Source: Roseburia sp.
GTDB taxonomy: Bacteria; Bacillota; Clostridia; Lachnospirales; Lachnospiraceae
NCBI GenBank assembly: GCA_017549185.1
Contig: JAFYVJ010000052.1
Coordinates: forward strand, 1 to 54,573
Reading direction: 5' to 3'
Length of the DNA: 54,573 nt
Every line of letters starts with the position of its first letter. The first letter of the stretch is position 1. Of the stretch, positions 1,535 to 17,983 are shown piece by piece. The notes under the pieces were generated by a model. The model was not told where the DNA came from, did not search any database, and saw only the letters and a list, made by a program, of their open reading frames with translations. The position numbers and the translations under genes are program-made.

Positions 1535-1563
1535 TTGAAGAACATGAATAATTAGGGTATACT
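1535..1563 (+). promoter_or_regulatory. Sigma-A promoter of the PRTase-GHKL operon
   Basis: TTGAAG (1535-1540), a 17-bp spacer and TATACT (1558-1563) form a near-consensus promoter about 50 bp upstream of the ATG at 1614. The start codon has a GGGGG ribosome site. Confidence 0.65.
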
Positions 1564-1613
1564 AAGTATAATGAAGCAGAGTACGGACAGAAAAAGTAAA
1601 TTGGGGGATAAAA

Positions 1614-4600
1614 ATGCACTGGACAATTTTATTTGACATACCAAATAGACAGGAAGATTATGCAAAGTGTCTGGAGCTGATTGAGAATATTTCAAACAGA
1701 ACAGATGAGGGGACGATTGATGAAGCATTTCTTGAAAACGTGTGCTATATTTCGGCAGAAAAAGAACTTTCTTTTTTGGAAATAATAAAAGGTCAGACTG
1801 TGCTATGGAATCAGAAGATACCCGAAATTAAGCAAGAAGATAATGTGAAGTATGTATTTTATGTAGATTGTTCTGATGAAAATGATATGATTAATATTAT
1901 CTATTTTTGTCAGGTCAATGATGTAGTAAAAGGTAATTGCATCCTTTGTATAAAGTCTGTTGATGAAGGGAAAAACCGGGCTAATATAACGGATTTGTTG
2001 TCAGAACTTTTGATTACAGGTGAGATTAAAGACTGCTATACCTTAATAGACAATAATTATAAAAGAGTAAATACAAATAAAGTTAGAATTCTGAAGCGTT
2101 TTTCTCCAATCTATAAAATTGACGAAGAAGAGAATTCGGTTGAATACTGGAGACAGTCCGTACATTCGTTTTTGTTAAAGTTATATAAAGAGATGCCGGT
2201 AGGAGGAAATGAATACCAGTATACAAAAAATTATTTTTTGCCACATATAGTTCCGGATTTATTAAAAAATCGTTATCCAAATGATATAGAAATCAAATCG
2301 TCGGACAATCATGACAGGAGACTCATGAAGATTTTTTTGGAATGTTTTTGTACACAGAAAAATTCGAAAAAAGACTTTGTGGAAAAAAGATATGAAATCT
2401 GGAAGTCTAAAGAACTGTTTGCATATATAAAGGATATGCCTTTATTAGCAATGTATATATTGTGTGTGTTGGATTATTTCCGAAAGAATCAGGAAAACGA
2501 TTCAATGGAGGAAATAAAGCAAGAGATTTTTGAAGCCAGAGATATGGCAGATGGATTGCTTCAAATTCTTGAAAATGTGTATCATTCAGAAAATAAATGT
2601 GGATATTTTTGCTTTCGTGTACATAAAAATAAGAAGGATAATAAGAATAAATATCTGGAAAAACAATATGCTGCCTTTATGGAAAAGATAGAAGAAATAC
2701 AGGGAAATACAGATAATTATTTGGAATTTAAAATAGTGGATTATTCTCATTACTCAATACCGGAACAATTCTATCAATGTTTTGTAAAAAGAATGGATAA
2801 TGCCGAAGAGGAAGAAAAGCAGATTTATGAGCAACTTTTGGAGCAGGCTCAGAAGATAGAGGTATTGTCTTTTTTTTCTTCGTCTGATTTCTGGTATTCA
2901 TATAATTCTATATCAGAGAATGTAGTGCATCATTACGGTTTGCAGATTTTTGAGTCATTAGTGGCTTGTTATGAAGGATATTTTCGTGTTAGGAGTAGTG
3001 GAAAATACCAGTTAAAATCTGAGAAAGAAATATATAGTACGATAGAAGATGAACCACATTCTATGATAAGCAGGAGGATTCCAGGAACACAGTATGAAAT
3101 TTTGCTTCCGTTTCGGATGAAAAAAGTGCCTCAGAACATTTCACTGAATGTAAATATTAATTACACAAATAATCTGTTGAAACAGTACGAAGTTTATGAA
3201 ACTATTAATTTTACAAGCAAATATTGTACAAGTGTTTATGAGGAGATACGCAAAAAAGAAATAAATAGGAATATTTCTTATCAAGAGATGAAAGAAAAAA
3301 CCATTCAGGAATTGGCAGTCAGACTACAGAACGATTTACAGAAAGTGACGGCAAAAAATCCGATTATACATTTTTCTGCGGAGAAGATATCACTTACAAT
3401 GGTGGAGATGTTCTGTAAAGCAATCATGCTTTATATTGCTCAGAAGCCGATTGGTGACAGTTGTTACATTATGATAACAGAATGTTCACAGGCTCATTTT
3501 ATTGAAATTACGAGAATGATGGCACTATTTTATGATAAGCAGGGGATGAATCAGCTGATGAAAGATACACAGCTATTTATGAGTGGTCAGAAAGAGGGAG
3601 AGGAATTTCTGATATATGGCAACAATCTGGGAGAAGCAATAGGTAGTACAGAAAAATTGGCATTTGCACGATGTATACATCCAGATTGTCTGAAGACTCT
3701 TAAAAAGATGTTGAAAAATCATAGTATGGGAAAATCTCCGAATGATATCGTAAGCATTGTGCCATTTGATATGATAAAGTATGATGAAAGCAAAGAAACG
3801 TTATTTGAGCGTAGTTTGCAAAAGGTACTGAATCAAGATGTGCAGACTGAAAAGTTTGGTTGTAAATTGGAAGATCTGCATGTAAAGATTGGTTCAAAAA
3901 TTCATATCAGGACATTTTATGAAGCAGAGCTTTTGTTCCATAATAATTATTATACATCCCGTTTTGCATACTGGCTGTTGAATGAGCTAAGTAGTAATAA
4001 GGAACTGGATTTGACAAAACGTTTTGTACTAGTGGGGTATGAGAATTATTCTGAAATGCTGTTAAATGAATTATGCAACATGTTTGGGAAGAACGGTATT
4101 CAAACAGATTATTTGATTTATGAGCAAAAGGCAGTCGGAAAATTCAGAGGAAGAGAACCCCTTAGTCAGTACAAAGACTGTCAATTTGTTATAATTGTAC
4201 CAATTAATTCTACCGTGACGACACATATTAAAGCAGCAGGTTTTTTGGAGAAAACAATAAAAGAAGAATTAAAAAAAGAAAATTACGAAAACTATTCAGA
4301 ATATCATTTGGGAAAGGTATGGAATTATGGAATTGTTCTGATATCAGACAAGAAAGAAAACCAATATTGGAAGAAGAGTCTAGAAGAACAGAACACCATC
4401 ATATCTACGATTTCTAATGAGAAAATGAAGTATTACACAGAGGTTATTTCAGAATGGGCACATCCGCTGAAGTGTAAAGCATGTTTTCCGGAGAATGATT
4501 ACACAAAAGAAGTTCCTTTGGTAGAAACCAATAAGGAGTCAGTGGTTCCGATGCATGCAATCAGTATAAAAAAAGAAAGGAGAAAAATAGACAGACATAA

Positions 4601-7517
4601 GATAAACGAGGAAGAAGAAAAGAAATTAGAGGAATTATCGGAGTTCTTAATTTATAAACATGTAGAAAGAAATGGTAATCATTTTAATTACTACTTTTCT
4701 ACGGAAAAACTATGGGATTTTCCCAAAGTTAGAAAAAACGTACAAGAATGGTTAAAGCAGAAAAAAGCATTGTTTCAGACTAGAGAGTGCAAGGTATATG
4801 ATATTATTGTTGCACCATTACATTTTAGCAATACGGCTTTTGTAGAAGAAGTAAACACATGGCTTTTTAGCAATGCAGCGTTAGTATTGCATTTTGACGT
4901 GGATAAAGAATTCCGAATGAATGTTAAAACAAAATACAGTTCGGTACAACAACTGTATGATAATCTGTGTATGGATGATGAAAAATCAGTTATTAATTTC
5001 CACTACGTGGACGATACCATCATTTCCGGTCATACATATAATAGAATGAAGAGCCTGATTATGTCGTTGATCACTCGTCGGGAAAACAGGAATGTAGAGA
5101 TTCATATTTTTAAAAGCATTGTATTGCTGTTAAATAGAATGTCTCCTTCTTCCATACAGCATTATATTGAAGAACCGGATTATTTCATGGCATATTTTAA
5201 TTTGAATATATCTTCTATGAGAGTAAATTCAGATGCATGTGTTTTATGTAAAAAACACAAGGAATGGAATAGTTTGGCAGAGCAGGCAGCATTAAATGAG
5301 ATATACGAATATTGGAAGAAAAAAAGTCGTAAAATAGAATGTAAAAAAATAGAACAAGAAGAGGAGAGTTTATTGCCAGGGAGACAGAAACGTGCAAAAC
5401 AATACATGATTGCATCTCATAGGGCAAAAAGTCTTCTTGATGTTGTATGTGTATCAGAGGAAATTGACGTAATTCAAAAGATGATTGTTGAGTACCTTTT
5501 CCCAAAGGCGGTAGAACAGTCGCTGGAAGAATTGATTGCCGTATTAAAGGTTCTGGGAAGACCATTTTTGATATTTCGAAGAGAAGCAAAAGAAGCTGTT
5601 TTCGGACTTATGCTGACAATGCTTGACGAGTTATTAAGAAATGAGGAACCTGCGGGAGAAGGAAAATTATATGATATTTTAAGAATGCTGTGGCGGAATC
5701 AAGCCAATCGTACAAAGATTATTACCATGCTTGTGAATAGACTTGCAGAAATGGGGGCAAACTATCTCATAAGAAAGCGAAGCATGAATTGTCTTATGTC
5801 TTATTGTATCCATGAAATTACGGATGAGCAGGAAAGCAGGTGTTTTGCGAGTAATTATTTAAACCGTGTGAAGCAATTGGTGGGACAGGGTAATGATTTT
5901 ACAAAGGGACTTTATCTGGAATATCTGCTATTGTATGGTGAGGAATATCAGAGCGATTTTTGTGATAAGCCTATGATACCGCTGGCAGGAAGTGACAGAG
6001 AAACAGCCTTTAAAAGAAATGTATATCTGGAAAATACAAAGCTGGCAAACTATGGAATTGAGTACCTTGCGGACTGTTTTACAAATGGAATGGACTATAC
6101 AAAAGAAAACTTCATGGAAGCGTTGAATGAGAACTATTATTTTGATAATTTTATTCAATATCTTTCCTTTCATAAGCAGGTTGAGATGGATGAGATGGGC
6201 AAGATTAAAGAATTCTCTTCAGAAGGTGTCATAAAGCAATTAGAAGGAATGGTGCGATTCCAGTTATTATATCAAAAGATATTTGGTGAATGGAAAATTA
6301 CAGGTATAGAGCTTGAAGAAGAAGAGAAAAATTTAAAAAATAAATTTGAGGAAATGTTAAAATGCCTAACGATGGCGGCAGGAGCTTTAGATGGAGAAAT
6401 TATAGTACCATACAGAAATCCGGAAAATGGAGAAAAGTTCATTGCATTGGGGCTGGGAAAAAGTGCTGAAATTCGCAGACTTAAGAATAAAGAGCAGAAA
6501 GTAATGAACTTTATGAAAGAGCACAGTGATTTTGAGGGTAATACATATGCTATTTGTGCTATGGAAGATGATAAAAAATGGATTTTACTGAAATTTTATG
6601 ATGGTACAAATGCAGGAAATGAAGATATCCCTATTATTTATATGCTCTTTCCATTCGATATAAAAGATGATGGAGAGATTTTACATGCATTAAAAAATAT
6701 TCTGATTTTTCGGAATAAGATATGGAAAATTTTAAATTTGTCAAGTAGTACATTATTACAGAACTGGACAGACAATCTGTTCTATAAGCAGCAGATGCTC
6801 AAATCTCGTGCGGTAGGTCATTCGGAATTAGATACTTTGGTAAATCAGATTAAAGAAGTGTCTGACATAATTTGTGATAAAGAAGATTCCGATATGAAAG
6901 GATCGGAACAGACGCTGTATAGGAAATATTTTGAACTTCTAGTGAATAACCTGATCGGATTTATGAATTCGCAGGTTCTGGGAGGAAATGGGAAGAACTT
7001 CATGATGCCGGCTGAGATGACATTTATGAAATTCTGGAATGGAGAAAAGAAAACCATTCAGGCCGCCGAAACGATCTGGAAATTGGAAGTAAAGCTTAAA
7101 GATGAGGAACATCTGCAACAGTATGCATTTAGAAAAGGAACAGAAAAGGTGAATTGGACCCCGGCACCGGATGCGTTACGGATACTTTTTCTTGCAATTT
7201 TACAAAATGCAAAAAAACATGGTATACGTGATAGAGAAGATAAAATTGTCATTATGATTTATGTGGAAGGAAATGATTTGTGTATTGCAAATCGAATCGA
7301 TAGTAAGGTGAAACCTCATATAGAGAGAGAAATCTGTTCGGAAGCATATCGAAGTGGAGAAGGAATCTCGCAGGCAGTAATTTTTGATATTTGTCAGAAC
7401 TGGTATCGACCTTTACATTATGAGGAATTATTTGCGTTGAAAGAGGAAAAAAACAATGACAATCAGTGGTGCTATGTGGTAAAATTACCTATAATACGAG
7501 GGGTGAATGAAGAATGA
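1614..7517 (+). CDS. 1967-residue protein: PRTase-like motifs plus C-terminal GHKL ATPase
   Basis: Very large soluble protein starting at ATG 1614 behind TTGGGGGATAAAA. Residues 1-790 match no family I recognise. About 790-1215 carries phosphoribosyltransferase-like signatures: an IVPINST segment with P863-T867, and VDDTIISGHT at 1132-1141, which fits the PRPP-binding loop of type I PRTases (two acidic residues, then S/T-G-x-T). A Cys pair CVLC at 1209-1212 follows. About 1220-1780 looks helical. The C-terminus is GHKL-ATPase-like: LQNAKKHG at 1863-1870 is the N-box (N1865) and SGEGIS (G1915, G1917) a G-box. No clear phosphoacceptor His region was found. The gene overlaps the next one, a receiver protein, by 4 bp, so the pair resembles an elaborate two-component device. 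I infer sensing or nucleotide signalling, possibly defence; substrate unknown. Confidence 0.85.
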   Translation: MHWTILFDIPNRQEDYAKCLELIENISNRTDEGTIDEAFLENVCYISAEKELSFLEIIKGQTVLWNQKIPEIKQEDNVKYVFYVDCSDENDMINIIYFCQVNDVVKGNCILCIKSVDEGKNRANITDLLSELLITGEIKDCYTLIDNNYKRVNTNKVRILKRFSPIYKIDEEENSVEYWRQSVHSFLLKLYKEMPVGGNEYQYTKNYFLPHIVPDLLKNRYPNDIEIKSSDNHDRRLMKIFLECFCTQKNSKKDFVEKRYEIWKSKELFAYIKDMPLLAMYILCVLDYFRKNQENDSMEEIKQEIFEARDMADGLLQILENVYHSENKCGYFCFRVHKNKKDNKNKYLEKQYAAFMEKIEEIQGNTDNYLEFKIVDYSHYSIPEQFYQCFVKRMDNAEEEEKQIYEQLLEQAQKIEVLSFFSSSDFWYSYNSISENVVHHYGLQIFESLVACYEGYFRVRSSGKYQLKSEKEIYSTIEDEPHSMISRRIPGTQYEILLPFRMKKVPQNISLNVNINYTNNLLKQYEVYETINFTSKYCTSVYEEIRKKEINRNISYQEMKEKTIQELAVRLQNDLQKVTAKNPIIHFSAEKISLTMVEMFCKAIMLYIAQKPIGDSCYIMITECSQAHFIEITRMMALFYDKQGMNQLMKDTQLFMSGQKEGEEFLIYGNNLGEAIGSTEKLAFARCIHPDCLKTLKKMLKNHSMGKSPNDIVSIVPFDMIKYDESKETLFERSLQKVLNQDVQTEKFGCKLEDLHVKIGSKIHIRTFYEAELLFHNNYYTSRFAYWLLNELSSNKELDLTKRFVLVGYENYSEMLLNELCNMFGKNGIQTDYLIYEQKAVGKFRGREPLSQYKDCQFVIIVPINSTVTTHIKAAGFLEKTIKEELKKENYENYSEYHLGKVWNYGIVLISDKKENQYWKKSLEEQNTIISTISNEKMKYYTEVISEWAHPLKCKACFPENDYTKEVPLVETNKESVVPMHAISIKKERRKIDRHKINEEEEKKLEELSEFLIYKHVERNGNHFNYYFSTEKLWDFPKVRKNVQEWLKQKKALFQTRECKVYDIIVAPLHFSNTAFVEEVNTWLFSNAALVLHFDVDKEFRMNVKTKYSSVQQLYDNLCMDDEKSVINFHYVDDTIISGHTYNRMKSLIMSLITRRENRNVEIHIFKSIVLLLNRMSPSSIQHYIEEPDYFMAYFNLNISSMRVNSDACVLCKKHKEWNSLAEQAALNEIYEYWKKKSRKIECKKIEQEEESLLPGRQKRAKQYMIASHRAKSLLDVVCVSEEIDVIQKMIVEYLFPKAVEQSLEELIAVLKVLGRPFLIFRREAKEAVFGLMLTMLDELLRNEEPAGEGKLYDILRMLWRNQANRTKIITMLVNRLAEMGANYLIRKRSMNCLMSYCIHEITDEQESRCFASNYLNRVKQLVGQGNDFTKGLYLEYLLLYGEEYQSDFCDKPMIPLAGSDRETAFKRNVYLENTKLANYGIEYLADCFTNGMDYTKENFMEALNENYYFDNFIQYLSFHKQVEMDEMGKIKEFSSEGVIKQLEGMVRFQLLYQKIFGEWKITGIELEEEEKNLKNKFEEMLKCLTMAAGALDGEIIVPYRNPENGEKFIALGLGKSAEIRRLKNKEQKVMNFMKEHSDFEGNTYAICAMEDDKKWILLKFYDGTNAGNEDIPIIYMLFPFDIKDDGEILHALKNILIFRNKIWKILNLSSSTLLQNWTDNLFYKQQMLKSRAVGHSELDTLVNQIKEVSDIICDKEDSDMKGSEQTLYRKYFELLVNNLIGFMNSQVLGGNGKNFMMPAEMTFMKFWNGEKKTIQAAETIWKLEVKLKDEEHLQQYAFRKGTEKVNWTPAPDALRILFLAILQNAKKHGIRDREDKIVIMIYVEGNDLCIANRIDSKVKPHIEREICSEAYRSGEGISQAVIFDICQNWYRPLHYEELFALKEEKNNDNQWCYVVKLPIIRGVNEE

Positions 7518-8020
7518 CAAAGATGAATATTTATCTAATTGAAGACTATATGAAGGAAGCAGAACAGATTATCAATAAGTTTAGGCAGATGGCAGAAAAA
7601 CGAGAGAATAAATATTTGTTCTGTATTGAACATCTGAAAGGAACAAAAAATACGATATATGAAGGTCTTGAAAGGGACTTTTATGAATTAGGTGTGCTAA
7701 AACAGATTGAAGATTTGTATGCTCAGAGTGAGAGAAAAAGGGAGAAGATGGGGATATTGCTGGATGTGTTGCTTACAGAAGAGGACATGGACAGTATGTA
7801 CTCCAGTTATTATCCACAGGCAGAACTTGCAAGGCGTATCTATCAGGAGTTCCATAACAGAATACCAATTTATATGATAACGAATACAGCAACTTTTGCA
7901 GTCCAAAGTGATGTGATTATGGGAGTGGACTTGTCAGATGCTTTTATAGCGAAGGATGCTTTGTTAAAATATGAATTAGAGAAAGAAATAGAGAAGATGT
8001 TTCATTATTATGAGAAATAG
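7514..8020 (+). CDS. Stand-alone response-regulator receiver protein, 168 aa
   Basis: Translationally coupled to the giant ATPase gene through an ATGA overlap. The protein keeps all hallmark receiver residues: acidic pair E10-D11 after IYLI, phosphoacceptor candidate D84 in ILLDVLL, T123 in IYMITN and K147 in IAKDAL. The D84 position is about 30 residues later than usual because of an extra charged helical segment (about 25-78). It has no DNA-binding or other output domain. The natural reading is that the GHKL domain of the upstream protein acts as its kinase or phosphatase and that the receiver controls a partner by binding. An alternative is a phosphorylation-independent pseudo-receiver. 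The fold call is an inference from spaced motifs. Confidence 0.7.
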   Translation: MTKMNIYLIEDYMKEAEQIINKFRQMAEKRENKYLFCIEHLKGTKNTIYEGLERDFYELGVLKQIEDLYAQSERKREKMGILLDVLLTEEDMDSMYSSYYPQAELARRIYQEFHNRIPIYMITNTATFAVQSDVIMGVDLSDAFIAKDALLKYELEKEIEKMFHYYEK

Positions 8021-8061
8021 CGGGGAAAGAAATAAATAAGGGAAGTAACAGAGGAGAAATT

Positions 8062-9246
8062 ATGTATAAATGGACATATGATGAGTCTGCTCAGCAACTC
8101 GCTAATGAGGAGATAGAGCAACTTCATATTTTAAATACTCCGAGTAAGCCATTATATCACTATACTTCCAGAGAAGTGTTTTGGTTGATTATGGAAAGCG
8201 AGACATTTTTAGCGAGACATATTAAGTTTTCAAATGATTATCAGGAAAATGAGATTGGAACGAAGATGATAGAGCAGGCTATGCAGGAGGCAGGAATGAC
8301 TTTGTCAGAGGTAGATGCACTGCCATTTATGATATGCTTTTGTGAAAAAGGAGATCTGCTCAGTCAATGGAGAGGTTATGCCAAAGAGGGTGTAGCGATG
8401 GAATTTGATTTTTCAAAAGGCTTGTATGGTATGCAAGAAGAATTTTCAAGCTATTATTGTTATACAATCATGAATAAAGATACAGAGAAAAAGAAAGGTG
8501 AGATGACGTATATTTCAGAATCATTGATAGGAGACGAAAAGCTGTGTATGGGAGCTATTGTATCTCCGTATTCTGTTATCTATACCGGAAGTGTGGATGA
8601 AGTTGCTCCGGTTGTGAGGGAAAATATTGAGAAAATTAAAAATGACAGTGTAGTAAATAAACAGCAGCATGTTATTGGAATGATTCCATACATAAAGAAT
8701 GATAAATTCTTAGAAGAATGCGAGTACCGTCTGTTATTTGACATGAAGCAATTCACACCGGGCTTAAATCAACATCTCCTACAGGAAAAATACGTCTATC
8801 TGGATGTGGATGGCATTAAGAAACCAAATATCAGAGTGAAGTTTGGAAATCAGGAAGAAATTGAGTCTGATGGAGTCATAAAGGTATATTATTCAAACAA
8901 TGACTGGACGGATAGCTTGGCAAAATTAAAAGATGAATTGGGCAAAGAGGATACACAGATAGAACTGATTAGTGATTGCAAACTATATCCGATGCAGGAG
9001 GACGAAATTGTATTATCGAGCGGTAAGAAGCAGGAAATTGTTGCAGCTAGGATTCGATCACTATTGGCACAGTCTGGTACGTCAGTTAGGGTGTGGTGCG
9101 ATGGGCATCTGCCGCTAAGGAGAGTTATTGTAGGTCCAAGTAAAGATGCGGAATTAATGAAATGTAGCATTGAAGAATACTTAAAGACAAAGTATTGGGC
9201 ACAGGATATTAAGGTGGATATTTCTGCTATTCCGCTTCGGACATAA
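8062..9246 (+). CDS. DUF2971 family protein, 394 aa
   Basis: Third gene of the operon, 41 bp after the receiver gene, with GAGGAGAAATT before ATG 8062. The sequence follows the DUF2971 pattern: LYHYTS (31-36), FSNDYQENE (56-64), ICFCEKGDLLSQWRGYA (91-107) and a C-terminal VIVGPS plus AIPLR ending. DUF2971 proteins have no agreed biochemical activity. The HYTS...ND spacing reminds me of ADP-ribosyltransferase-like folds, but that is speculation. In this operon it is the natural candidate for the output or effector, since the other two proteins look like sensor/ATPase and relay. A terminator follows at 9305-9343. Confidence 0.8.
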   Translation: MYKWTYDESAQQLANEEIEQLHILNTPSKPLYHYTSREVFWLIMESETFLARHIKFSNDYQENEIGTKMIEQAMQEAGMTLSEVDALPFMICFCEKGDLLSQWRGYAKEGVAMEFDFSKGLYGMQEEFSSYYCYTIMNKDTEKKKGEMTYISESLIGDEKLCMGAIVSPYSVIYTGSVDEVAPVVRENIEKIKNDSVVNKQQHVIGMIPYIKNDKFLEECEYRLLFDMKQFTPGLNQHLLQEKYVYLDVDGIKKPNIRVKFGNQEEIESDGVIKVYYSNNDWTDSLAKLKDELGKEDTQIELISDCKLYPMQEDEIVLSSGKKQEIVAARIRSLLAQSGTSVRVWCDGHLPLRRVIVGPSKDAELMKCSIEEYLKTKYWAQDIKVDISAIPLRT

Positions 9247-9304
9247 GAGGATAGAAAAATCAAATAAGAAATGTTGCGAAAAAAGTTATAACAAATTATG
9301 GTTA

Positions 9305-9343
9305 TTTAGTGGTAGTTTTTTAAAACTACCACTAAATTTTTTT
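9305..9343 (+). terminator. Strong terminator of the PRTase-GHKL operon
   Basis: A 15-bp perfect stem (9305-9319 with 9322-9336) around a 2-base loop is followed by seven T. It closes the three-gene operon. The right arm contains the CTAAA used as the -35 of the next sigma-D promoter. Confidence 0.9.
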
Positions 9344-9360
9344 GTTCTATCTTCCGATAT
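9332..9360 (+). promoter_or_regulatory. Sigma-D (SigD/FliA-type) promoter for flaG-fliD-fliS
   Basis: CTAAA (9332-9336) and CCGATAT (9354-9360) are exact copies of the Bacillus sigma-D elements, with a 17-bp spacer (15-16 is usual). The promoter lies 67 bp upstream of flaG. Confidence 0.7.
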
Positions 9361-9426
9361 AAATGGTAAGAGTATTAATAGGACTATTTTGGGAGTATAT
9401 CCAAGTAACAAAACACATGGAGGTGT

Positions 9427-9861
9427 ATGAAGATGGCAATAGAAGCTATTAAAGGAGCAGGGATGTCGTTTCAGGGAAGTGCGTCATCAGCAGCAATGAA
9501 AGCAGAAAGCGCACCAAGAGTAGAGAGTGCTTCAAACGTGACAGCATCAGATGCAATCGCACAGAAAACAGTAGAGATTTCTACAAAAGGTGCAGATGCA
9601 GATGGTGGCGGTAATGGTGGAGCTGGTAACCGGCAGATGCCAAGCAATGAACAGATTAAGAGAGCCGTAGAAGAGATTAATAAGAAAGCAAATAACTCAG
9701 AAGCCGTTTTCGGTGTTCATGAAGAGACAAATCGTATCACAATTAAGATTGTTGATAAAGAAAGTAAGGAAGTTATCAAAGAGTTTCCGCCAGAAAAGAC
9801 TTTAGATATGATTGCTAAAGTTTGGGAGATGGCAGGACTCATGGTGGATGAAAAACGTTAA
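9427..9861 (+). CDS. flaG: FlaG family flagellar protein
   Basis: 144 residues. The N-terminal 75 are low complexity (Ala, Ser, Gly, Lys). The C-terminal domain has the FlaG pattern: AVEEINKKANN, then FGVHEETNRITIKIVDKESKEV and EFPPEKTLDMIAKVWEMAG. FlaG proteins influence filament length or cap function and are commonly encoded beside fliD. ATG 9427 has GGAGG 5 bases upstream; ATG 9433 is an alternative. It is first in the sigma-D-driven flaG-fliD-fliS operon, 19 bp before fliD. Confidence 0.9.
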   Translation: MKMAIEAIKGAGMSFQGSASSAAMKAESAPRVESASNVTASDAIAQKTVEISTKGADADGGGNGGAGNRQMPSNEQIKRAVEEINKKANNSEAVFGVHEETNRITIKIVDKESKEVIKEFPPEKTLDMIAKVWEMAGLMVDEKR

Positions 9862-9880
9862 AGAAAGGTAAGGTGAGTAT

Positions 9881-11386
9881 ATGCCTATTCGTATATCAGG
9901 TTTGAATTCCGGCTTGGATACAGAATCCATTATTTCGGCATTAGTATCCAGCTACAATTATAAAACTCAGAAATATGAGAAAGCACAGACCAAATTATCT
10001 TGGAAACAAGATGCATGGAAAGAATTGAATACGAAGATTTACAGCTTGTATAATAATGTTGGTAATCTTCGCCTTAACAGTTCTTATAAGTTAAAGACAG
10101 CTACAGTTTCAGACGCGACAAAGGTATCTGTAACAGCAGGTGCGAATTCCATTAACGGTTCCTATAGTGTACAGGTTACGAAGCTGGCGAAGTCCGGTTA
10201 TATGACAGGTGAGGAATTAGGAAATGAGGCAAAAGCATCATCGACGTTAAAAGATTTGGGATATACCGGAGAAAAGGGAGAGATATCGCTTGTTGTTTCA
10301 GGAGAGACAAAAAAGATTTCTGTTTCGGCAGATACAACGATACAGGATGTAGTGAATCAGTTAAAAGAAGCAGGCGTAAATGCAAGCTTTGATGCGAAGA
10401 ATAAGCGTATTTTTGTTAGTGCGAAAGCTGCTGGTGAAGCGAATGACTTTGAATTAGTAGGGGCTGATGCAGCAGGAACGGCTATTTTAAATCGTTTAGG
10501 ATTGACAGAAGAAGCGGGTGCTACGCGTGTTGAAGGTTCTAATGCAGAGATTTATGTAAATGGTGCGAAATACACGAATGATACCAATACATTCTCTATT
10601 AACAACATGACATTTACTGCGTCTGCTATTACAGGAGAGGATTATGATCCAACCGAAGCACGGGCGGTAAATGTAATCGTTAATACCGATACGCAGGCGA
10701 TTTATGATAAGGTGAAAGATTTCCTTTCACAGTACAATTCGATTATTAATGAGATGACTTCATTGTATAATGCAGAGTCAGCTAAGGGATATGAACCATT
10801 AACCAGCGATGAGAAAGATGCTATGTCCGAGACAGAAGTAGAGAAGTGGGAAGCTAAGATTAAAGCATCCATTCTTAGACGTGATGATACCCTTTCTAGT
10901 ATTATCAGTACTATGACTAGTGCAATGTCTAAGTCTGTAAACGTGAACGGTGAGAATTTACACCTTTCGGATTTTGGTATTCAGACATTGGGATTTTTGA
11001 ATGCACCGAAGAATGAGCATAATGCATATCATATTGATGGTGATGAGGATGATGCCAATACATCAGGTAAGACAGATAAGCTGATGGCTGCCATTGCAGA
11101 AGATCCGGACAAAGTGATAGACTTTATGATGGGACTCTCAAAGAATCTTTATGAGGCGGTAGATAAGAAGATGAAATCTACTACATTGAGCAGTTCGTAT
11201 ACGATTTATAACGACAAAGAGATGGCATCTGAATATAGTGATTATACATCTTTAATTACTAAATGGCAGGATCGTTTGACACAACAAGAAGAGTATTATT
11301 ATAAAAAGTTTGCAGCAATGGAAACAGCATTATCTAAGCTAAATAGTCAGACTTCTTCTTTGAGTGGTTTATTTGGTGGTATGTAG
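9881..11386 (+). CDS. fliD: Flagellar filament cap protein FliD (HAP2)
   Basis: 501 residues. The N-terminus IRISGLNSGLDTESIISALV is diagnostic of FliD, which caps the filament and helps flagellin assemble. The N-terminal domain runs to about 105 (SYSVQVTKLAK), with a variable middle and a FliD C-terminal domain ending in coiled-coil segments (KWQDRLTQQEEYYYKKFAAM). There is no signal peptide, as expected for a type III-exported protein. The ATG lies 19 bp after flaG with AAGGTAAGG upstream. FliS follows 67 bp downstream, so this is a classic late flagellar operon. Confidence 0.97.
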   Translation: MPIRISGLNSGLDTESIISALVSSYNYKTQKYEKAQTKLSWKQDAWKELNTKIYSLYNNVGNLRLNSSYKLKTATVSDATKVSVTAGANSINGSYSVQVTKLAKSGYMTGEELGNEAKASSTLKDLGYTGEKGEISLVVSGETKKISVSADTTIQDVVNQLKEAGVNASFDAKNKRIFVSAKAAGEANDFELVGADAAGTAILNRLGLTEEAGATRVEGSNAEIYVNGAKYTNDTNTFSINNMTFTASAITGEDYDPTEARAVNVIVNTDTQAIYDKVKDFLSQYNSIINEMTSLYNAESAKGYEPLTSDEKDAMSETEVEKWEAKIKASILRRDDTLSSIISTMTSAMSKSVNVNGENLHLSDFGIQTLGFLNAPKNEHNAYHIDGDEDDANTSGKTDKLMAAIAEDPDKVIDFMMGLSKNLYEAVDKKMKSTTLSSSYTIYNDKEMASEYSDYTSLITKWQDRLTQQEEYYYKKFAAMETALSKLNSQTSSLSGLFGGM

Positions 11387-11909: not shown

Positions 11910-11942
11910 GTGGAATAAGGGAAATGATATGTGAGGTATAGT

Positions 11943-12893
11943 ATGTACAATTTTGCAGTAATAGGAGTGGGGGCGTTAGGGAAACGTCACTTAGAATCTA
12001 TTTTAAAGCTTGATTTGCCTTATAAGGTATATGTAATTGACAGAGATGAAAAAGCAGTTGCAGAAGCGGTTGATATGTGTTCTGAAAAAGTAAACGGTGG
12101 TTTGGACGTGACCATTTTGCCGGAAGAGTTAGATGTAGTTATCATTGCTACCAATTCAAATGTCCGTAGACTAGTTTTTGAACAGTTGATCGAGCATAGC
12201 AAGGTGAAGAATATTATTTTTGAAAAAGTTCTCTTCCAGAAAATCGAAGACTACTATGAAGTAGAAAAACGCTTGCAGGAACATGATATAAAGGCGTGGA
12301 TTAACTGCGCGAGACGTGAGCAACCGGCATATTGGGAATTCAAAGAGGTGGTAGACAAGAGTAAATACTTCACATTCCAGTTGGCAGGTGGTCAGTGGGG
12401 ATTGGGATGCAATGCGGTACATATGCTTGACCTGGTGAAATTCTTGAGCGGAGAGCAGGAATGTCGGATTCACAAATTGAATCTGCTTCCGGAAATCGTA
12501 GATAGTAAACGAAGCGGTTATAAAGAAATTTTTGGAACGATATCCGGTGAATGTGGTAAATGTCAGGCATTTTCGATTGCCTGCTATAAGGATAGTACAT
12601 TACCGATACAGATAGAGATTATTGGAGATAATTTCCGTGCACATATCTTAGAAGGTGGTAAGAAAATCACACTGATGCAAGAATCGAATGGTTGGCAGGT
12701 TGAAGAAAGAGAATTTCCGATGCTGTATGTCAGTCAGACGACAGGTAATATCATTAACAGTATACTGACGACGGGTGACTGCAAGTTGCCGAAGTTTGCA
12801 GATTCCATGCAGGCACATTTAGAATTATTACAGCCGTTAATGGAATTTTTTGAAAAACAAGGATTGGAGAAAGGAATATGTCCGATAACGTAA
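11943..12893 (+). CDS. Gfo/Idh/MocA-type oxidoreductase (first copy)
   Basis: Dinucleotide-binding N-terminus NFAVIGVGALGKRHLES, a strand VVIIATNS and IIFEKVLF at the place of the family EKP motif. This indicates an NAD(P)-dependent sugar oxidoreductase of about 316 residues. I prefer ATG 11943 (GAGG 6 bases upstream) over GTG 11931. The substrate is unknown. It overlaps a second, distinct family member by 16 bp and heads the CDP-dideoxysugar block, so it probably acts on a nucleotide sugar for flagellin glycan. The EKP variant (EKV) weakens confidence that it is a standard catalytic enzyme. Confidence 0.75.
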   Translation: MYNFAVIGVGALGKRHLESILKLDLPYKVYVIDRDEKAVAEAVDMCSEKVNGGLDVTILPEELDVVIIATNSNVRRLVFEQLIEHSKVKNIIFEKVLFQKIEDYYEVEKRLQEHDIKAWINCARREQPAYWEFKEVVDKSKYFTFQLAGGQWGLGCNAVHMLDLVKFLSGEQECRIHKLNLLPEIVDSKRSGYKEIFGTISGECGKCQAFSIACYKDSTLPIQIEIIGDNFRAHILEGGKKITLMQESNGWQVEEREFPMLYVSQTTGNIINSILTTGDCKLPKFADSMQAHLELLQPLMEFFEKQGLEKGICPIT

Positions 12894-13834
12894 AAGTATT
12901 AGTAGTAGGTGCCGGTGCGATGGCACAGGAATATTGCAAAGTATTAAAGGCACTCGAATATGAACCGGTAGTAATTGGCAGAGGGGAAGAAAAGGCTGCT
13001 AAGCTGGAAGCAGAGTTTGGAGTGCAGGTTTTAAGAGGCGGAATTGAGAATAATATAGACAATATGCAGGAACTCCCGGAATATGCCATTGTAGCGGTTG
13101 ATGTAGAATATCTTGCACATACCGCAATGATTCTGTTAGAACATGGCGTGAAGAATATTCTGCTTGAGAAACCGGCAGGCATCACACGAGAAGAAGTTGC
13201 CGCAGTGGCGGAATTGAGCAGAGAAAAAGATGCAAAAGTATATGTGGCATATAACAGAAGATTCTATGCATCTGTACAGAAAGCATTGGAGATTATCGAA
13301 GAAGATGGTGGTGTATCGTCTTTTCATTTTGAATTTACTGAGTGGGTGCATGTATTTGAAAAGCTTAATTTCTCAGAAGTGAAAAAACAGGTGATGTTCC
13401 TCGGAAATTCTACTCATGTCATTGATTTGGCATTTTTCTTGGGTGGAGCACCAAAGGAAATGTCTTCCTATGTACAGGGCGAGCTGGCATGGAATAAGGG
13501 AATTAAAAGCTATGCAGGTGCAGGTGTTTCCGAAAAGGGCATACTGTTTACCTATCAGTCCAACTGGTCAGCACCGGGCAGATGGGCAGTAGAGGTACTT
13601 ACTGACCAGCACAGATTGTACTTTAAGCCAATGGAGAAGTTACAGATACAGGAAAAAGGTTCTGTTGCAGTGGGTCCGGTGGAAATCGATGACGAACTGG
13701 ATGTACTTTATAAGCCGGGCTTATATCGTCAGACAGAATCATTCTTAAAAGGCATTGAGGATGGCAAAAAGGTTGCTATTGAAGAACAGTTGGCACACTG
13801 GGAGTTTTTTGAGAAAATAGAAGGTAAATTATAA
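12878..13834 (+). CDS. Gfo/Idh/MocA-type oxidoreductase (second copy)
   Basis: 318 residues with VLVVGAGAMAQEYCK (NAD(P)-binding), NILLEKPAG (canonical EKP) and a C-terminal sheet domain typical of the GFO/IDH/MocA family. The start overlaps the upstream oxidoreductase gene and is preceded by GGAGAAAGGAAT, suggesting coupled translation. It lies 18 bp before rfbF. A nucleotide-sugar dehydrogenase or reductase acting in the adjacent pathway is likely; the substrate cannot be read from the sequence. Confidence 0.8.
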   Translation: MSDNVKVLVVGAGAMAQEYCKVLKALEYEPVVIGRGEEKAAKLEAEFGVQVLRGGIENNIDNMQELPEYAIVAVDVEYLAHTAMILLEHGVKNILLEKPAGITREEVAAVAELSREKDAKVYVAYNRRFYASVQKALEIIEEDGGVSSFHFEFTEWVHVFEKLNFSEVKKQVMFLGNSTHVIDLAFFLGGAPKEMSSYVQGELAWNKGIKSYAGAGVSEKGILFTYQSNWSAPGRWAVEVLTDQHRLYFKPMEKLQIQEKGSVAVGPVEIDDELDVLYKPGLYRQTESFLKGIEDGKKVAIEEQLAHWEFFEKIEGKL

Positions 13835-13852
13835 AGAAAACGAGGGTATTAT

Positions 13853-14629
13853 ATGAAAGTAGTTATCTTAGCAGGTGGATTCGGAACAAGAATTAGTGAA
13901 GAAAGTCATTTGAAACCGAAACCAATGTTGGAAATAGGTGGAAAGCCAATTTTATGGCACATTATGAAAGAATATTCTTATTATGGATTTAATGAATTTG
14001 TTATTTGCTGTGGATATAAGCAACATGTGATCAAAGAGTGGTTTGCGGATTATTATCTTCATAATAGTGATGTGACATTCGATTTTAGCAATAACAATGA
14101 GATGACAGTACATAATAATGTGGCGGAACCGTGGAAAGTTACACTTGTAGATACCGGTTTGAACACGATGACTGGAGGGCGTGTGAAGCGAGTACAAAAA
14201 TACATTGGCGATGAGACATTTATGCTGACTTATGGAGATGGTGTGAGCGATGTAAATATCGCAGAGTTAGTAGCGTTCCACAAATCCCATGGTAAGATTG
14301 CTACAATTACAGCAGCAAATGTAGAACAGCGCTTTGGTGTATTAGATATTCAACAAGATGGAACAATCGAAGCGTTTCGTGAGAAAAGCGTGGATGACGG
14401 CGTTAAAATCAATGCAGGCTACATGGTTTTAGAACCACAGATTTTTGACTATATTGATGGTGATGAAACGATATTCGAAAAGAAACCATTAGAAACGGTG
14501 GCTCATAAGGGCGAGTTAAAGGCGTATGCGTTTGATGGTTTTTGGCAATGCATGGATACCAAACGAGAGATGGATAAGCTGAATGAAATGTGGGATTCAG
14601 GTTGTGCTCCATGGAAAAAATGGGATTAG
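13853..14629 (+). CDS. rfbF: Glucose-1-phosphate cytidylyltransferase
   Basis: 258 residues, the RfbF/DdhA length. The start MKVVILAGGFGTRISEESHL is the nucleotidyltransferase signature, followed by KPKPMLEIGGKPILWHIM and, near the C-terminus, FDGFWQCMDTKREMD. It makes CDP-glucose from CTP and glucose-1-phosphate, the entry step to 3,6-dideoxyhexoses. The presence of rfbH and rfbG within 4 kb supports the assignment. Confidence 0.93.
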   Translation: MKVVILAGGFGTRISEESHLKPKPMLEIGGKPILWHIMKEYSYYGFNEFVICCGYKQHVIKEWFADYYLHNSDVTFDFSNNNEMTVHNNVAEPWKVTLVDTGLNTMTGGRVKRVQKYIGDETFMLTYGDGVSDVNIAELVAFHKSHGKIATITAANVEQRFGVLDIQQDGTIEAFREKSVDDGVKINAGYMVLEPQIFDYIDGDETIFEKKPLETVAHKGELKAYAFDGFWQCMDTKREMDKLNEMWDSGCAPWKKWD

Positions 14630-14644
14630 TAGAGGATTGGCAGT

Positions 14645-15985
14645 ATGTTCGAGAATATGACAGAAGCACAGGCAAAACAACAGATTTTAGATATGGTATT
14701 GGAATATTGTGATACTTATCACAATCAAAAGAAAAGTTTTCAAGAAGGTGATAGAATTCCTTATGCATCCAGAGTATATGACCATGTAGAAATGTGTAAC
14801 TTGGTGGATTCAGCATTGGAATTTTGGTTGACAGCTGGGAGATATACAGAAGAGTTTGAAAGGGTATTTGCAGAGTATTTGGGAGTAAAATACTGCTCCC
14901 TTGTAAACTCTGGCTCGTCTGCCAATTTGAATGCATTCATGGCATTGACTTCACCATTGCTAGGAGAGCGACAGGTAAAGCCAGGAGACGAGATGATTAC
15001 TGTGGCAGCAGGGTTTCCGACAACGGTAACACCGGCTATTCAGTATGGAGTCATCCCGGTATTTGTGGATGTTACTATTCCACAATATAATATTGATGTT
15101 GCTATGTTAGAAGCCGCACTTTCTGAAAAAACGAAAGTAGTAATGATAGCACATACATTGGGAAATCCTTTTGACTTAAAAGCGGTTAAGGAATTTTGTG
15201 ATAATAATAATTTGTGGCTGATTGAGGATAACTGTGATGCACTTGGAAGTAAATACGACTTTGATGGAGAAGAGAAATTTACAGGAACCATAGGGGATAT
15301 TGGTACATCATCTTTTTATCCGCCACATCATATGACTATGGGAGAAGGTGGAGCAGTATATACCAATAATCCGTTGTTGCATAAATGCATTCGTTCTTTC
15401 CGTGATTGGGGAAGAGACTGTGTATGTGCATCAGGACAGGATAATTTGTGTAAACATCGTTTTGATAAACAATACGGGGAATTGCCGTTAGGATATGATC
15501 ATAAATATGTGTATTCTCACTTTGGTTACAATTTGAAAGCTACTGATATGCAGGCAGCAGTGGGATGTGCGCAGATAAAGAAGTTTCCAGGCTTTGTAAA
15601 ACGAAGAAGAGAAAACTTTGAAAGATTAAAAGCAGGACTTGCTGGAACGGAAGATAAGATAATTCTTCCTGTACCATGTGAGAATTCCAAACCTAGTTGG
15701 TTCGGTTTTTTGATTACCTGCAAAGAAGGGACTGATAGAAATAAGGTTGTGCAATATGTGGAAGAACATGGTGTGCAGACCAGAATGCTTTTTGCAGGAA
15801 ATTTGATTAAACATCCGTGCTTTGACCAGATGCGTGCAGAGGGAAAAGGTTATCGAGTGGTAGGAGAACTTACGAATACGGATCGAATTATGAATGACAC
15901 GTTTTGGGTAGGAGTTTATCCGGGAATGACGGATGAAATGATTGATTATATGGCTAAAATTATTAAAGAGGCTATTGGTAAATAA
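14645..15985 (+). CDS. rfbH: CDP-4-keto-6-deoxyglucose-3-dehydrase (E1), RfbH
   Basis: 446-residue PLP-fold (DegT/DnrJ/EryC1-related) enzyme. The usual PLP-binding Lys is replaced by His in FYPPHHMTMGEGGA, which marks the E1 dehydrases that use PMP. The C-x-C-x7-C motif CVCASGQDNLC plus an upstream Cys in DNCDALG fits their [2Fe-2S] site. It removes the C3 hydroxyl of CDP-6-deoxy-4-ketoglucose together with a reductase (E3) that is not in this window. It sits between rfbF and the reductase/rfbG genes. Confidence 0.93.
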   Translation: MFENMTEAQAKQQILDMVLEYCDTYHNQKKSFQEGDRIPYASRVYDHVEMCNLVDSALEFWLTAGRYTEEFERVFAEYLGVKYCSLVNSGSSANLNAFMALTSPLLGERQVKPGDEMITVAAGFPTTVTPAIQYGVIPVFVDVTIPQYNIDVAMLEAALSEKTKVVMIAHTLGNPFDLKAVKEFCDNNNLWLIEDNCDALGSKYDFDGEEKFTGTIGDIGTSSFYPPHHMTMGEGGAVYTNNPLLHKCIRSFRDWGRDCVCASGQDNLCKHRFDKQYGELPLGYDHKYVYSHFGYNLKATDMQAAVGCAQIKKFPGFVKRRRENFERLKAGLAGTEDKIILPVPCENSKPSWFGFLITCKEGTDRNKVVQYVEEHGVQTRMLFAGNLIKHPCFDQMRAEGKGYRVVGELTNTDRIMNDTFWVGVYPGMTDEMIDYMAKIIKEAIGK

Positions 15986-15996
15986 TTGGAGGAATT

Positions 15997-16914
15997 ATGC
16001 GAGCTGTCGTGACGGGTGCAACTGGATTTGTAGGCACATGGTTGGTAAAGGAGTTGCTAAAACAAAATGATGAAGTAACCATAATCGTTCGAGATAAGAA
16101 AAAGGTGCAGACTGAATGGTTAGGAAAAGTAGAAGTTGTGGAGGCATCCTTGGAACAGTTGCAGAATTTGACATCATGTGATTTTGCACAGAAGACAGCA
16201 GATATTTTTTTTCATTTGGCTTGGGCAGGAATGTCGAGAGAGAAACGAGCAAATATTGATTTGCAATTAGGAAATATCAGAACAACTGCCGAGGCAGTAA
16301 AGTTGGCGAAAAAGTTGTGCTGTAAGCGATTTGTATATGCTGGAAGTATTATGGAATATGAGGCGATACAATATGTGACATCTGATGACGGGATGGCAGG
16401 AATGGGAAGCATTTACAGTGTTGCCAAAGTTACCGGAGATTACATTGCCAAGACATTGGCAGTCCAAGAGTGTATGGAATATATAAATGTGATTATTTCT
16501 AATATTTATGGAGCGGGAGAAAAGTCAGAGCGTTTTTTGAATACAACCCTTAGAAAAATGCTTCGTAATGAGGAAATAGCGATGACGCATGGCACACAGT
16601 TATATGATTTTATTTATGTGGCAGATGCAGTAAAAGCAATTCTTTTAGTGGCAAAAGAGGGACGTGCCAATGCCTCTTATTATATTGGAAATGCAGAACA
16701 GCGAATGCTAAGAGACTATGTATTAGAAATGAAATCAGTCTTACATAGTAATTCAGAATTATTATTTGGAGCAATTCCTTTTGCAGGAACGATGTTGACT
16801 TATAAAGAGTTTGATACAAAAAAACTGCAAGAAATGGGTTTTCAGCCGGAGGTGTCGTTTGAAGAAGGAATTATCAGAACCAGAGATTGGATTTTATCAA
16901 ATTTAGAAGGATAG
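15997..16914 (+). CDS. NAD-dependent epimerase/reductase (CDP-abequose/paratose synthase-like)
   Basis: 305-residue extended short-chain dehydrogenase with AVVTGATGFVGTWL at the N-terminus, HLAWAG, a Ser in YAGSIMEYEA and the YSVAK catalytic pair. By position between rfbH and rfbG it most likely reduces the C4 ketone of CDP-3,6-dideoxy-4-ketoglucose to a final sugar, as RfbJ or RfbS do. Sequence alone does not tell abequose from paratose. Start ATG 15997 has TTGGAGGAATT upstream. It is 4 bp from rfbG. Confidence 0.8.
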   Translation: MRAVVTGATGFVGTWLVKELLKQNDEVTIIVRDKKKVQTEWLGKVEVVEASLEQLQNLTSCDFAQKTADIFFHLAWAGMSREKRANIDLQLGNIRTTAEAVKLAKKLCCKRFVYAGSIMEYEAIQYVTSDDGMAGMGSIYSVAKVTGDYIAKTLAVQECMEYINVIISNIYGAGEKSERFLNTTLRKMLRNEEIAMTHGTQLYDFIYVADAVKAILLVAKEGRANASYYIGNAEQRMLRDYVLEMKSVLHSNSELLFGAIPFAGTMLTYKEFDTKKLQEMGFQPEVSFEEGIIRTRDWILSNLEG

Positions 16915-16918
16915 CAGT

Positions 16919-17983
16919 ATGGTAGATTTTAGTTTTTATTGCAATAAAAAGGTATTGGTTACCGGTCATACGGGGTTTAAAGGTGCATGGATGTGTAAAC
17001 TGTTGATTATGGCAGGTGCGGATGTGATAGGTTATGCTTTGGAAAGCCCTACAGAACCAAGCCTTTTTCATATGTGCAAAATAGCGGAGGGTATGAATTC
17101 CATAATTGGAGATATCAGAGATTTGGAACATTTGCAGAGGGTCTTTGAAGAGGTACAGCCGGAAATTGTAATTCATATGGCGGCACAACCGCTGGTTCGT
17201 GAATCTTATCAGAATCCGGTATACACATATGAGACAAATGTGCTGGGAACAGTGAATATCCTTGAGTGCATTCGATTAAATCCATGTGTGAAGTCCTTTG
17301 TGAATGTAACGACGGATAAGGTCTATTTGAATAAAGAGTGGGAATGGGGATATCGGGAGAATGAAGAATTGAATGGATATGACCCATATTCAAATTCAAA
17401 GTCCTGTTCGGAATTAGTGACAAGCAGTTATTTGAATGCTTTCTTTAGAGAGAAAGCAGTAGCGATTACTACCTGCAGAGCGGGAAATGTGATTGGTGGT
17501 GGTGATTTTGCGACAGACCGTATCTTGCCGGATTGTATTAGGGCAGTAGAAAAGGGCGAAAATATTATTGTGCGAAATCCATTTTCCACCAGACCATACC
17601 AGCATGTATTGGAGCCTGTTGTGGCGTATCTGATGATTGCACAGCGTCAGTACGAGGATAAAAGTCTGGCGGGAAGCTATAATGTGGGACCGGACGAGGC
17701 GGATTGTTGGACGACAGGTAGATTAGTGGACTTGTTCTGTAAGGAATGGGAACGTCAGACGGGCCAGCATGTAGAATGGATAAATCAATACGATGGTGGA
17801 CCACATGAAGCAAACTTTTTAAAATTAGATTGTTCTAAGATAAAGAAGACATTTGGCTGGAAACCGGTGTGGAATGTGGAAATGACTATGGAAAAGATAG
17901 TGGAATGGTCGAAGTGTTACCTTGAGCAGGGGGATGTGCTGCTGTGTATGGAAAAGCAGATTAAAGAATATACGAGGGTATAA
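16919..17983 (+). CDS. rfbG: CDP-glucose 4,6-dehydratase
   Basis: 354 residues. KVLVTGHTGFKGAWMCKLL is the characteristic RfbG start (GHTGFKG rather than GATGFIG). VTTDKVY and YDPYSNSKSCSE carry the catalytic Thr/Asp/Lys and Tyr-x3-Lys, and AGNVIGGGDFATDRILPD is conserved in CDP-glucose dehydratases. It forms CDP-4-keto-6-deoxyglucose, the substrate of rfbH. The pathway order is rfbF, rfbG, rfbH, then the reductase. Confidence 0.94.
   Translation: MVDFSFYCNKKVLVTGHTGFKGAWMCKLLIMAGADVIGYALESPTEPSLFHMCKIAEGMNSIIGDIRDLEHLQRVFEEVQPEIVIHMAAQPLVRESYQNPVYTYETNVLGTVNILECIRLNPCVKSFVNVTTDKVYLNKEWEWGYRENEELNGYDPYSNSKSCSELVTSSYLNAFFREKAVAITTCRAGNVIGGGDFATDRILPDCIRAVEKGENIIVRNPFSTRPYQHVLEPVVAYLMIAQRQYEDKSLAGSYNVGPDEADCWTTGRLVDLFCKEWERQTGQHVEWINQYDGGPHEANFLKLDCSKIKKTFGWKPVWNVEMTMEKIVEWSKCYLEQGDVLLCMEKQIKEYTRV

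Follow-up and report, generated by a model that had tools for sequence, protein, structure and literature searches.

What kind of system is encoded by three adjacent genes at one end of a Roseburia contig, and what might it act against? The window considered here is the 54,573-nt contig JAFYVJ010000052.1 (positions 1 to 54,573 of the forward strand; Roseburia sp., GenBank assembly GCA_017549185.1), taken in full from a draft genome of 2.3 Mb that is ~70% complete. On its + strand, as for all window features below, lie a giant protein of 1967 amino acids (1614–7517; from the list of open reading frames (ORFs), with relatives found in genome searches), a receiver-like protein of 168 amino acids (7514–8020; ORF list and profile comparison) and a DUF2971 protein of 394 amino acids, the candidate output (8062–9246; PF11185 match). 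The original prediction, made from the sequence alone, had proposed a new three-gene system at this place, and its layout was recovered as described, including the 4-bp overlap that joins the giant and receiver-like ORFs and the motif positions in the giant (PINST 863, VDDTIISGHT 1132 and LQNAKKHG 1863). We report that the three genes stay together and that their proteins diverge together, and we consider the chances about even that they form a three-gene phosphorelay that is inherited as a unit and patchily distributed, and whose most likely role is anti-phage defence of the abortive-infection type.

Rare adjacency of homologues had been named beforehand as the outcome that would speak against a system, and that outcome was not seen. 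For 13 giants, that of the window among them, the sequence downstream could be read; 11 of these have a receiver-like gene and then a DUF2971 gene next to them, namely those of the window and of loci L008, L019–L024, L029, L122 and L184. Outside the 13 stand L009, in which giant and receiver are visible before the contig stops 208 bp past the receiver, and two contig-end pieces of genome G296 (L005 and L010). In the 10 loci where they were measured, the gaps between genes range from −23 to +41 nt, and the exact values vary with the start codons chosen. Across the trio loci, pairwise protein distances were strongly correlated (Mantel r = 0.907 for giant–receiver, 0.953 for giant–DUF2971 and 0.809 for receiver–DUF2971; permutation p ≤ 2e-4, n = 11, with L122 cut at a contig end and only the second giant ORF of L029 entering the distance matrices), and correlations of 0.83 and 0.88 were obtained with L008 removed (n = 10).

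The trio is sparsely distributed. Searches for the giant covered overlapping genome samples, the first four of which include our own genome as a hit and the last three genome G748: giant-bearing genomes numbered 3 of 392 in the order (single-protein query), 8 of 397 in the family (alignment query), 2 of 391 in the class, 2 of 398 in the phylum and 3 of 355 in the order of G748. A separate scan recovered L008, whose giant, from a Roseburia draft genome, is 75% identical to that of the window, and the L122 trio was reached through a DUF2971 search of the 11 genomes then known. As an observation in its own right, genome G296 holds this complete trio together with pieces of at least one other giant on other contigs (L005, L010), and two such systems may coexist there.

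The receiver-like character proposed for the second gene was supported by profile comparison with shuffle controls. Against receivers of its own genome the receiver-like protein reached an HHalign P of 73.8, rising to 86.9 over 98 columns with 12 rows (0/100 shuffles as high), and the window protein carries all four signature features: the acidic pair (D11), a phospho-acceptor candidate (D84, codon 7763–7765), the Thr/Ser position (T123) and the Lys (K147). D11 is kept in 12/12 rows and D84 in 11/12. None of nine receiver-like proteins matched Pfam Response_reg. Taken at the level of sequence, a receiver-like protein with conserved aspartates is well supported, although the Lys is not shared by all relatives.

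The giant is nearly opaque to family libraries: scans of Pfam, NCBIfam and PHROGs gave nothing beyond noise (best ASCH, E 0.43), and 12 giants searched against Pfam matched neither HATPase_c at E 0.5 nor any phosphoribosyltransferase (PRTase) family. A sequence search of the PDB with the giant or the DUF2971 protein as single query returned no match, and searches with domain profiles returned weak matches that we read as noise, except perhaps an amidophosphoribosyltransferase (E 0.26) at the phosphoribosyl pyrophosphate (PRPP) motif of PRTase-like region 2 (see below). Comparison with own-genome histidine kinases was more telling. Residues ~290–500 (2481–3113), with an N-box QILENVYHS from 317, D376, G442 and PGT at 490–492, reached P = 91.6, a score equalled by 0/100 column shuffles, with other targets below 1; N321, D376, G442, P490 and T492 are invariant in 11/11 aligned giant rows. 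The N-box Asn, the G boxes and the profile similarity, by which GHKL membership is judged at sequence level, are all present, and a histidine-kinase-type ATPase region near the N-terminus is well supported as a prediction. Separately, the giant of L029 (6684–12879) reads as two overlapping ORFs, split at the equivalent of ~residue 700 of the window protein, a place where the GHKL part of the protein may meet the PRTase/C-terminal part.

The opposite end of the giant is also kinase-like. A histidine within the motif RAVGHS (from 1732), H1736 (codon 6819–6821), is the candidate phospho-histidine; it is kept in 12/12 aligned giants and, with L184 added, in 13/13 that hold the region. It lies 129 residues before the N-box Asn 1865, compared with 112–118 residues in those own-genome kinases (13 of 16) in which both sites were found. 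Residues 1675–1967 matched histidine kinases at P = 78, 66.7 and 77.7 in three comparisons (0/100 shuffles as high), and the catalytic portion alone (residues ~1830–1967, 7101–7514, N-box LQNAKKHG 1863–1870) at only 7.5. The N-box Asn is present in 5/12 aligned giants and is Ser or Asp in 7/12, for which reason the functional ATPase is more likely the GHKL region near the N-terminus. The C-terminal GHKL ATPase of the original prediction therefore survives as a kinase-like region, well supported by profile comparison and with an ATP site that appears often degenerate, but it is one of two GHKL-like regions and the weaker ATPase candidate. The N-terminal region, the invariant H1736 and a weak PRTase-like region at ~738–1000 had not been part of that prediction.

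Between these ends lie two regions that were compared with PRTases drawn from the own genome and, at most, 30 further genomes of the same phylum. The comparisons used several targets and settings, and each shuffle count applies to one comparison alone. Region 2 (residues ~1010–1230, 4641–5303) holds the PRPP-type motif VDDTIISGHT (1132–1141) and a CxxC pair (1209–1212). Against 56 PRTases it reached P = 69.5 over 160 columns (0/60 shuffles as high), against 29 best pyrE-model matches 39.5 over 152 columns, under other settings 9.7–55.7, and against 16 other PRTases 7.5. Each of the 29 pyrE-model sequences is the top match in its genome, L145 being left out of 30 loci, and the pyrE cut-off was passed in only 5/31 genomes, so an orotate-type label for region 2 is not established. 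Smaller sets gave negative results: P was 0.12 for region 2 against 11 members of one PRTase group, 3.1 (region 2) and 0.1 (region 1) against six own-genome PRTases (of 8 places, one with an internal stop and one short sequence being left out), and 0.17 and 0.10 against the own pyrE alone. D1133, D1134 and both CxxC pairs are present in 11/11 trio giants; elsewhere the acidic motif reads VDT (L009) or, in the variants described below, VDY and VNT. A PRTase-like region with a DD motif is moderately supported here.

Region 1 (residues ~738–1000, 3825–4613; GSKIHI..FYEAELLF from 760, GYENYSE from 808, VPINSTVTT 862–870, CxxC 954–957) scored P = 12.3 over 122 columns against the 56 PRTases (0/60 shuffles as high) and 0.09–1.5 in the remaining comparisons, in two of which 2/100 and 1/60 shuffles scored as high. 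Its PRPP-motif position reads VPINSTVTT, without an acidic pair, and falls outside the definition of a type I PRTase. The PRTase motifs originally proposed thus fare unequally: the profiles moderately support the region around VDDTIISGHT, but PINST sits in a separate, weak region that lacks the PRPP-type acidic pair. A duplication relating regions 1 and 2 was considered and found unsupported (mutual P = 0.14).

Two of the 13 giants (L025 and L185) carry a calcineurin-like phosphoesterase in place of the receiver and DUF2971 genes. At L025 (1129–8031) the phosphoesterase (3.9e-11) replaces the C-terminal region of the giant; at L185 (4296–13883) it is a separate gene (2e-14), followed by a gene of the endonuclease/exonuclease/phosphatase (EEP) family (8.7e-9). 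When the ORFs of both loci were searched with receiver and DUF2971 profiles, no hit was better than E 0.03, and neither giant has the histidine motif at the expected position. This exchange of histidine region, receiver and DUF2971 for a phosphoesterase suggests that the output is swappable.

The third protein belongs to a thinly described family with viral connections. The window protein scores 23.4 bits against PF11185 (curated cut-off 22), and at E ≤ 0.5 the family is matched by 8/8 of the aligned trio proteins; the L184 member, at 16.4 bits, falls below the Pfam cut-off. By the Pfam profile, 11 genomes hold 0–3 DUF2971 genes each (our own genome one, the trio gene), a lower bound, since in G578, G600 and G612 the profile overlooks even the DUF2971 gene of the trio. 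DUF2971 occurs in prophage contigs and on plasmids, and 37 of 42 pattern hits on viral contigs (L078–L114) encode relatives. An alignment (A12) of proteins from 26 of these 37 loci with those of the window and L008 (28 members) retains H33, N58, D59, E62, S101, Q102, W103, E219, E221 and R223 as invariant residues, and 24/28 members match the PADLOC defence candidate PDC-S31. The window protein likewise belongs to PF11185, but it does not match PDC-S31 at E 0.01 and has two fixed partner genes, and at 394 amino acids it is longer than most aligned viral relatives. An HYT motif would make DUF2971 a putative ADP-ribosyltransferase, a reading that was set aside; the motif His is Tyr or Lys in 4/8 trio members. 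Elsewhere, a 980-amino-acid ORF at L115 (1335–4277) contains an in-frame DUF2971 match and is perhaps a fusion to another module.

Defence genes were sought with PADLOC among chosen proteins near six relatives (L008, L020, L021, L022, L024 and L029) and in the two ORFs left of the window operon; the neighbours of L019, L023, L025, L122, L184 and L185 lie outside these scans. A recognised or likely defence gene stands close to 3/6 relatives. L029 is flanked by brxA/B/C/pglX on one side and by AbiH/SIR2-like and AAA-ATPase genes on the other, L024 has a NotI-type restriction enzyme and methyltransferase ~2 kb away, and L022 adjoins an AAA ATPase with sub-threshold STAND/NACHT matches. Candidate hits alone were obtained for L008 and for L020, where a phosphorylase-HAD fusion with a candidate-defence match lies ~4 kb away.

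The proposed reading draws on the conserved and co-diverging trio, the profile evidence for its domains, the patchy spread, the L029 defence island and the defence-type neighbours of L024 and L022, the viral DUF2971 relatives with their link to PDC-S31, the contrast in GC content (operon 31–37%, flagellar side 36–40%, first kilobase 33%), the swappable output and the rarity of DUF2971. We infer a defence role, ligand sensing, a phosphate path and a toxic DUF2971 output, arranged as follows. The PRTase-like pair would bind or use a compound whose level shifts on infection (PRPP, a nucleotide or a base), and the state of this ligand would gate the N-terminal ATPase. This ATPase would phosphorylate H1736, the phosphate would move from H1736 to D84 of the receiver, and the phosphorylated receiver would release or activate DUF2971, which, once freed, would harm the infected cell. 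L025 and L185 would retain the sensor core with a phosphoesterase output instead. In its boldest form, which we advance tentatively and as a possibility below even odds, the tandem PRTase-like domains, one intact and one having lost its PRPP motif, would be a nucleotide/PRPP gauge that drives an N-terminal GHKL kinase, a histidine–receiver relay and DUF2971 as the killer or, in a second subtype, a phosphoesterase, and together would constitute a new class of immune sensor. The phosphorelay with nucleotide or PRPP sensing originally proposed is partly supported, in its co-occurring trio, its kinase-like and receiver-like regions and, moderately, its PRTase content, and required correction in the PRTase and GHKL assignments.

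Several observations weigh against this proposal. The receiver Lys is missing from some rows, and L122 reads IND where the acidic pair is expected; the C-terminal N-box Asn is lost in 7/12 giants, as noted above. Region 1 is PRTase-like only weakly and is probably degenerate, and the support for region 2 depends on settings, being positive only with the larger PRTase sets. DUF2971 has no solved relative in the PDB sequence search and no known activity. Searches of plasmids and phages and pattern scans of viral contigs yielded no giant. With PADLOC, the sole match of the window's three proteins was giant–BrxA at E 0.023, taken as noise, and no defence gene appeared among the chosen proteins at L021 or in the two ORFs left of the window operon; the tally of defence neighbours stands without a random-region control, and sugar-nucleotide genes are read from the ORFs near several copies.

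These neighbours would fit a different account, in which an accessory two-component system serves stress or surface adaptation, the giant sensing nucleotide state or an envelope change and a DUF2971 enzyme adjusting metabolism or surface glycans. By our reading of ORFs, the window, L021, L020, L025 and L008 all lie beside sugar-nucleotide or glycan genes, and the scans at L021 and next to the window operon turned up no defence gene; the patchy distribution, the L029 copy in a defence island, the DUF2971 relatives that constitute a PADLOC defence candidate and the swapping of outputs speak against it, and we judge it rather unlikely. The invariance of the DD motif in 11/11 trio giants could instead mean that the PRTase-like domains produce a signal nucleotide that switches on DUF2971 or, in the variants, the phosphoesterase, the histidine and receiver serving only for tuning. 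Ter-system PRTases have been proposed as makers of signal nucleotides (PMC7824862, PMC5512222), and phosphoesterases do occur in the variants. However, region 1 is without a DD motif, and region 2 reads VDT in L009 and VDY and VNT in the variants, so that catalysis may be dispensable; such a second-messenger scheme seems to us quite improbable.

A toxin–antitoxin-like unit would dispense with phosphate altogether: the receiver-like protein would bind and silence DUF2971, and the giant would remove it on a trigger by an ATP-driven conformational change. A small gene immediately 5′ of the DUF2971 gene, divergent receivers with an incomplete signature and a C-terminal ATP site changed in 7/12 giants are what such a unit might show, but the conserved aspartates occur together with an invariant histidine, and we hold this arrangement to be improbable. 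The anti-phage phosphorelay remains our preferred reading, and if it is true, the trio would be a new phosphorelay-controlled immune system with a sensor made of metabolic-enzyme domains, DUF2971, named in a single paper of the literature searched, would gain a testable role and partner genes, and a route would open to studying how nucleotide state tells bacteria of an infection.

Among known systems, Spo0B and ChpT are phosphotransferases that combine a pair of DHp-like helices with a catalytic domain that has degenerated; the comparable region of the trio, likened by description, is by contrast the C-terminal end of a giant in which a GHKL region with conserved motifs is also present. Detocs effectors are exchangeable, and the trio resembles Detocs in its three-gene defensive two-component logic. 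Set apart from Detocs by description, the trio has a sensor of ~2000 amino acids with GHKL and PRTase-like regions, and its output is a DUF2971 protein without a recognised receiver or PNP domain. A PADLOC scan of the window proteins gave no Detocs match, although whether the PADLOC library covers Detocs is uncertain. The best-described Detocs comprises three genes and uses a PNP effector that cleaves ATP (PMC11249213). The PRTases of Ter systems and polyvalent proteins are likewise placed in biological conflict, with proposed roles in making or sensing nucleotides (PMC7824862, PMC5512222). The trio shares PRTase domains in a conflict setting but has its PRTase-like regions fused to GHKL and histidine-kinase-like regions, and no TerB or TerD gene was noticed beside trio copies, no profile search having been aimed at them. 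DefensePredictor (PMC13092281) lists HATPase and REC among the domains of predicted, unvalidated systems (Fig. 6F legend) and PRTase among those of validated systems (Fig. 4 legend), with DUF2971 absent from its main text; its predicted systems may include relatives of the trio. No description of the trio was found in the literature searched, most subscription papers and supplements being beyond reach, and the three genes look like an undescribed bacterial immune system.

The surroundings of the copies are varied. From the ORFs we read transposase or recombinase genes near L009, L023, L024, L025, L122 and L184. The sugar-nucleotide genes are of CDP-sugar type in the window (11931–17983) and at L021 (30–2819) and of GDP-mannose/fucose type at L020 (3207–6516) and L025 (10915–14303), and these loci are possibly shared insertion hot spots. 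Just upstream of the L008 trio (8882–9922) lies a radical SAM/SPASM gene that matches PADLOC viperin profiles (5e-22) and Pfam Radical_SAM and SPASM.

In the window itself, the neighbourhood left of the operon is lost because base 1 is the contig end. The broken genes once placed beside the operon were not confirmed: library scans of the ORFs at 43–513 and 887–1462 gave no family match below E 0.05, and the breaks themselves were not looked for. The proposed promoter-to-terminator unit stands at one end only. The promoter-like candidate TTGAAG-17-TATACT (1535–1563; 9/12 consensus matches) is at chance level, with 33 such sites found compared to 36.0 ± 5.6 in shuffles, but an intrinsic terminator is supported at 9304–9337, where a 15-pair stem (folding z −5.06) is followed by a T run.

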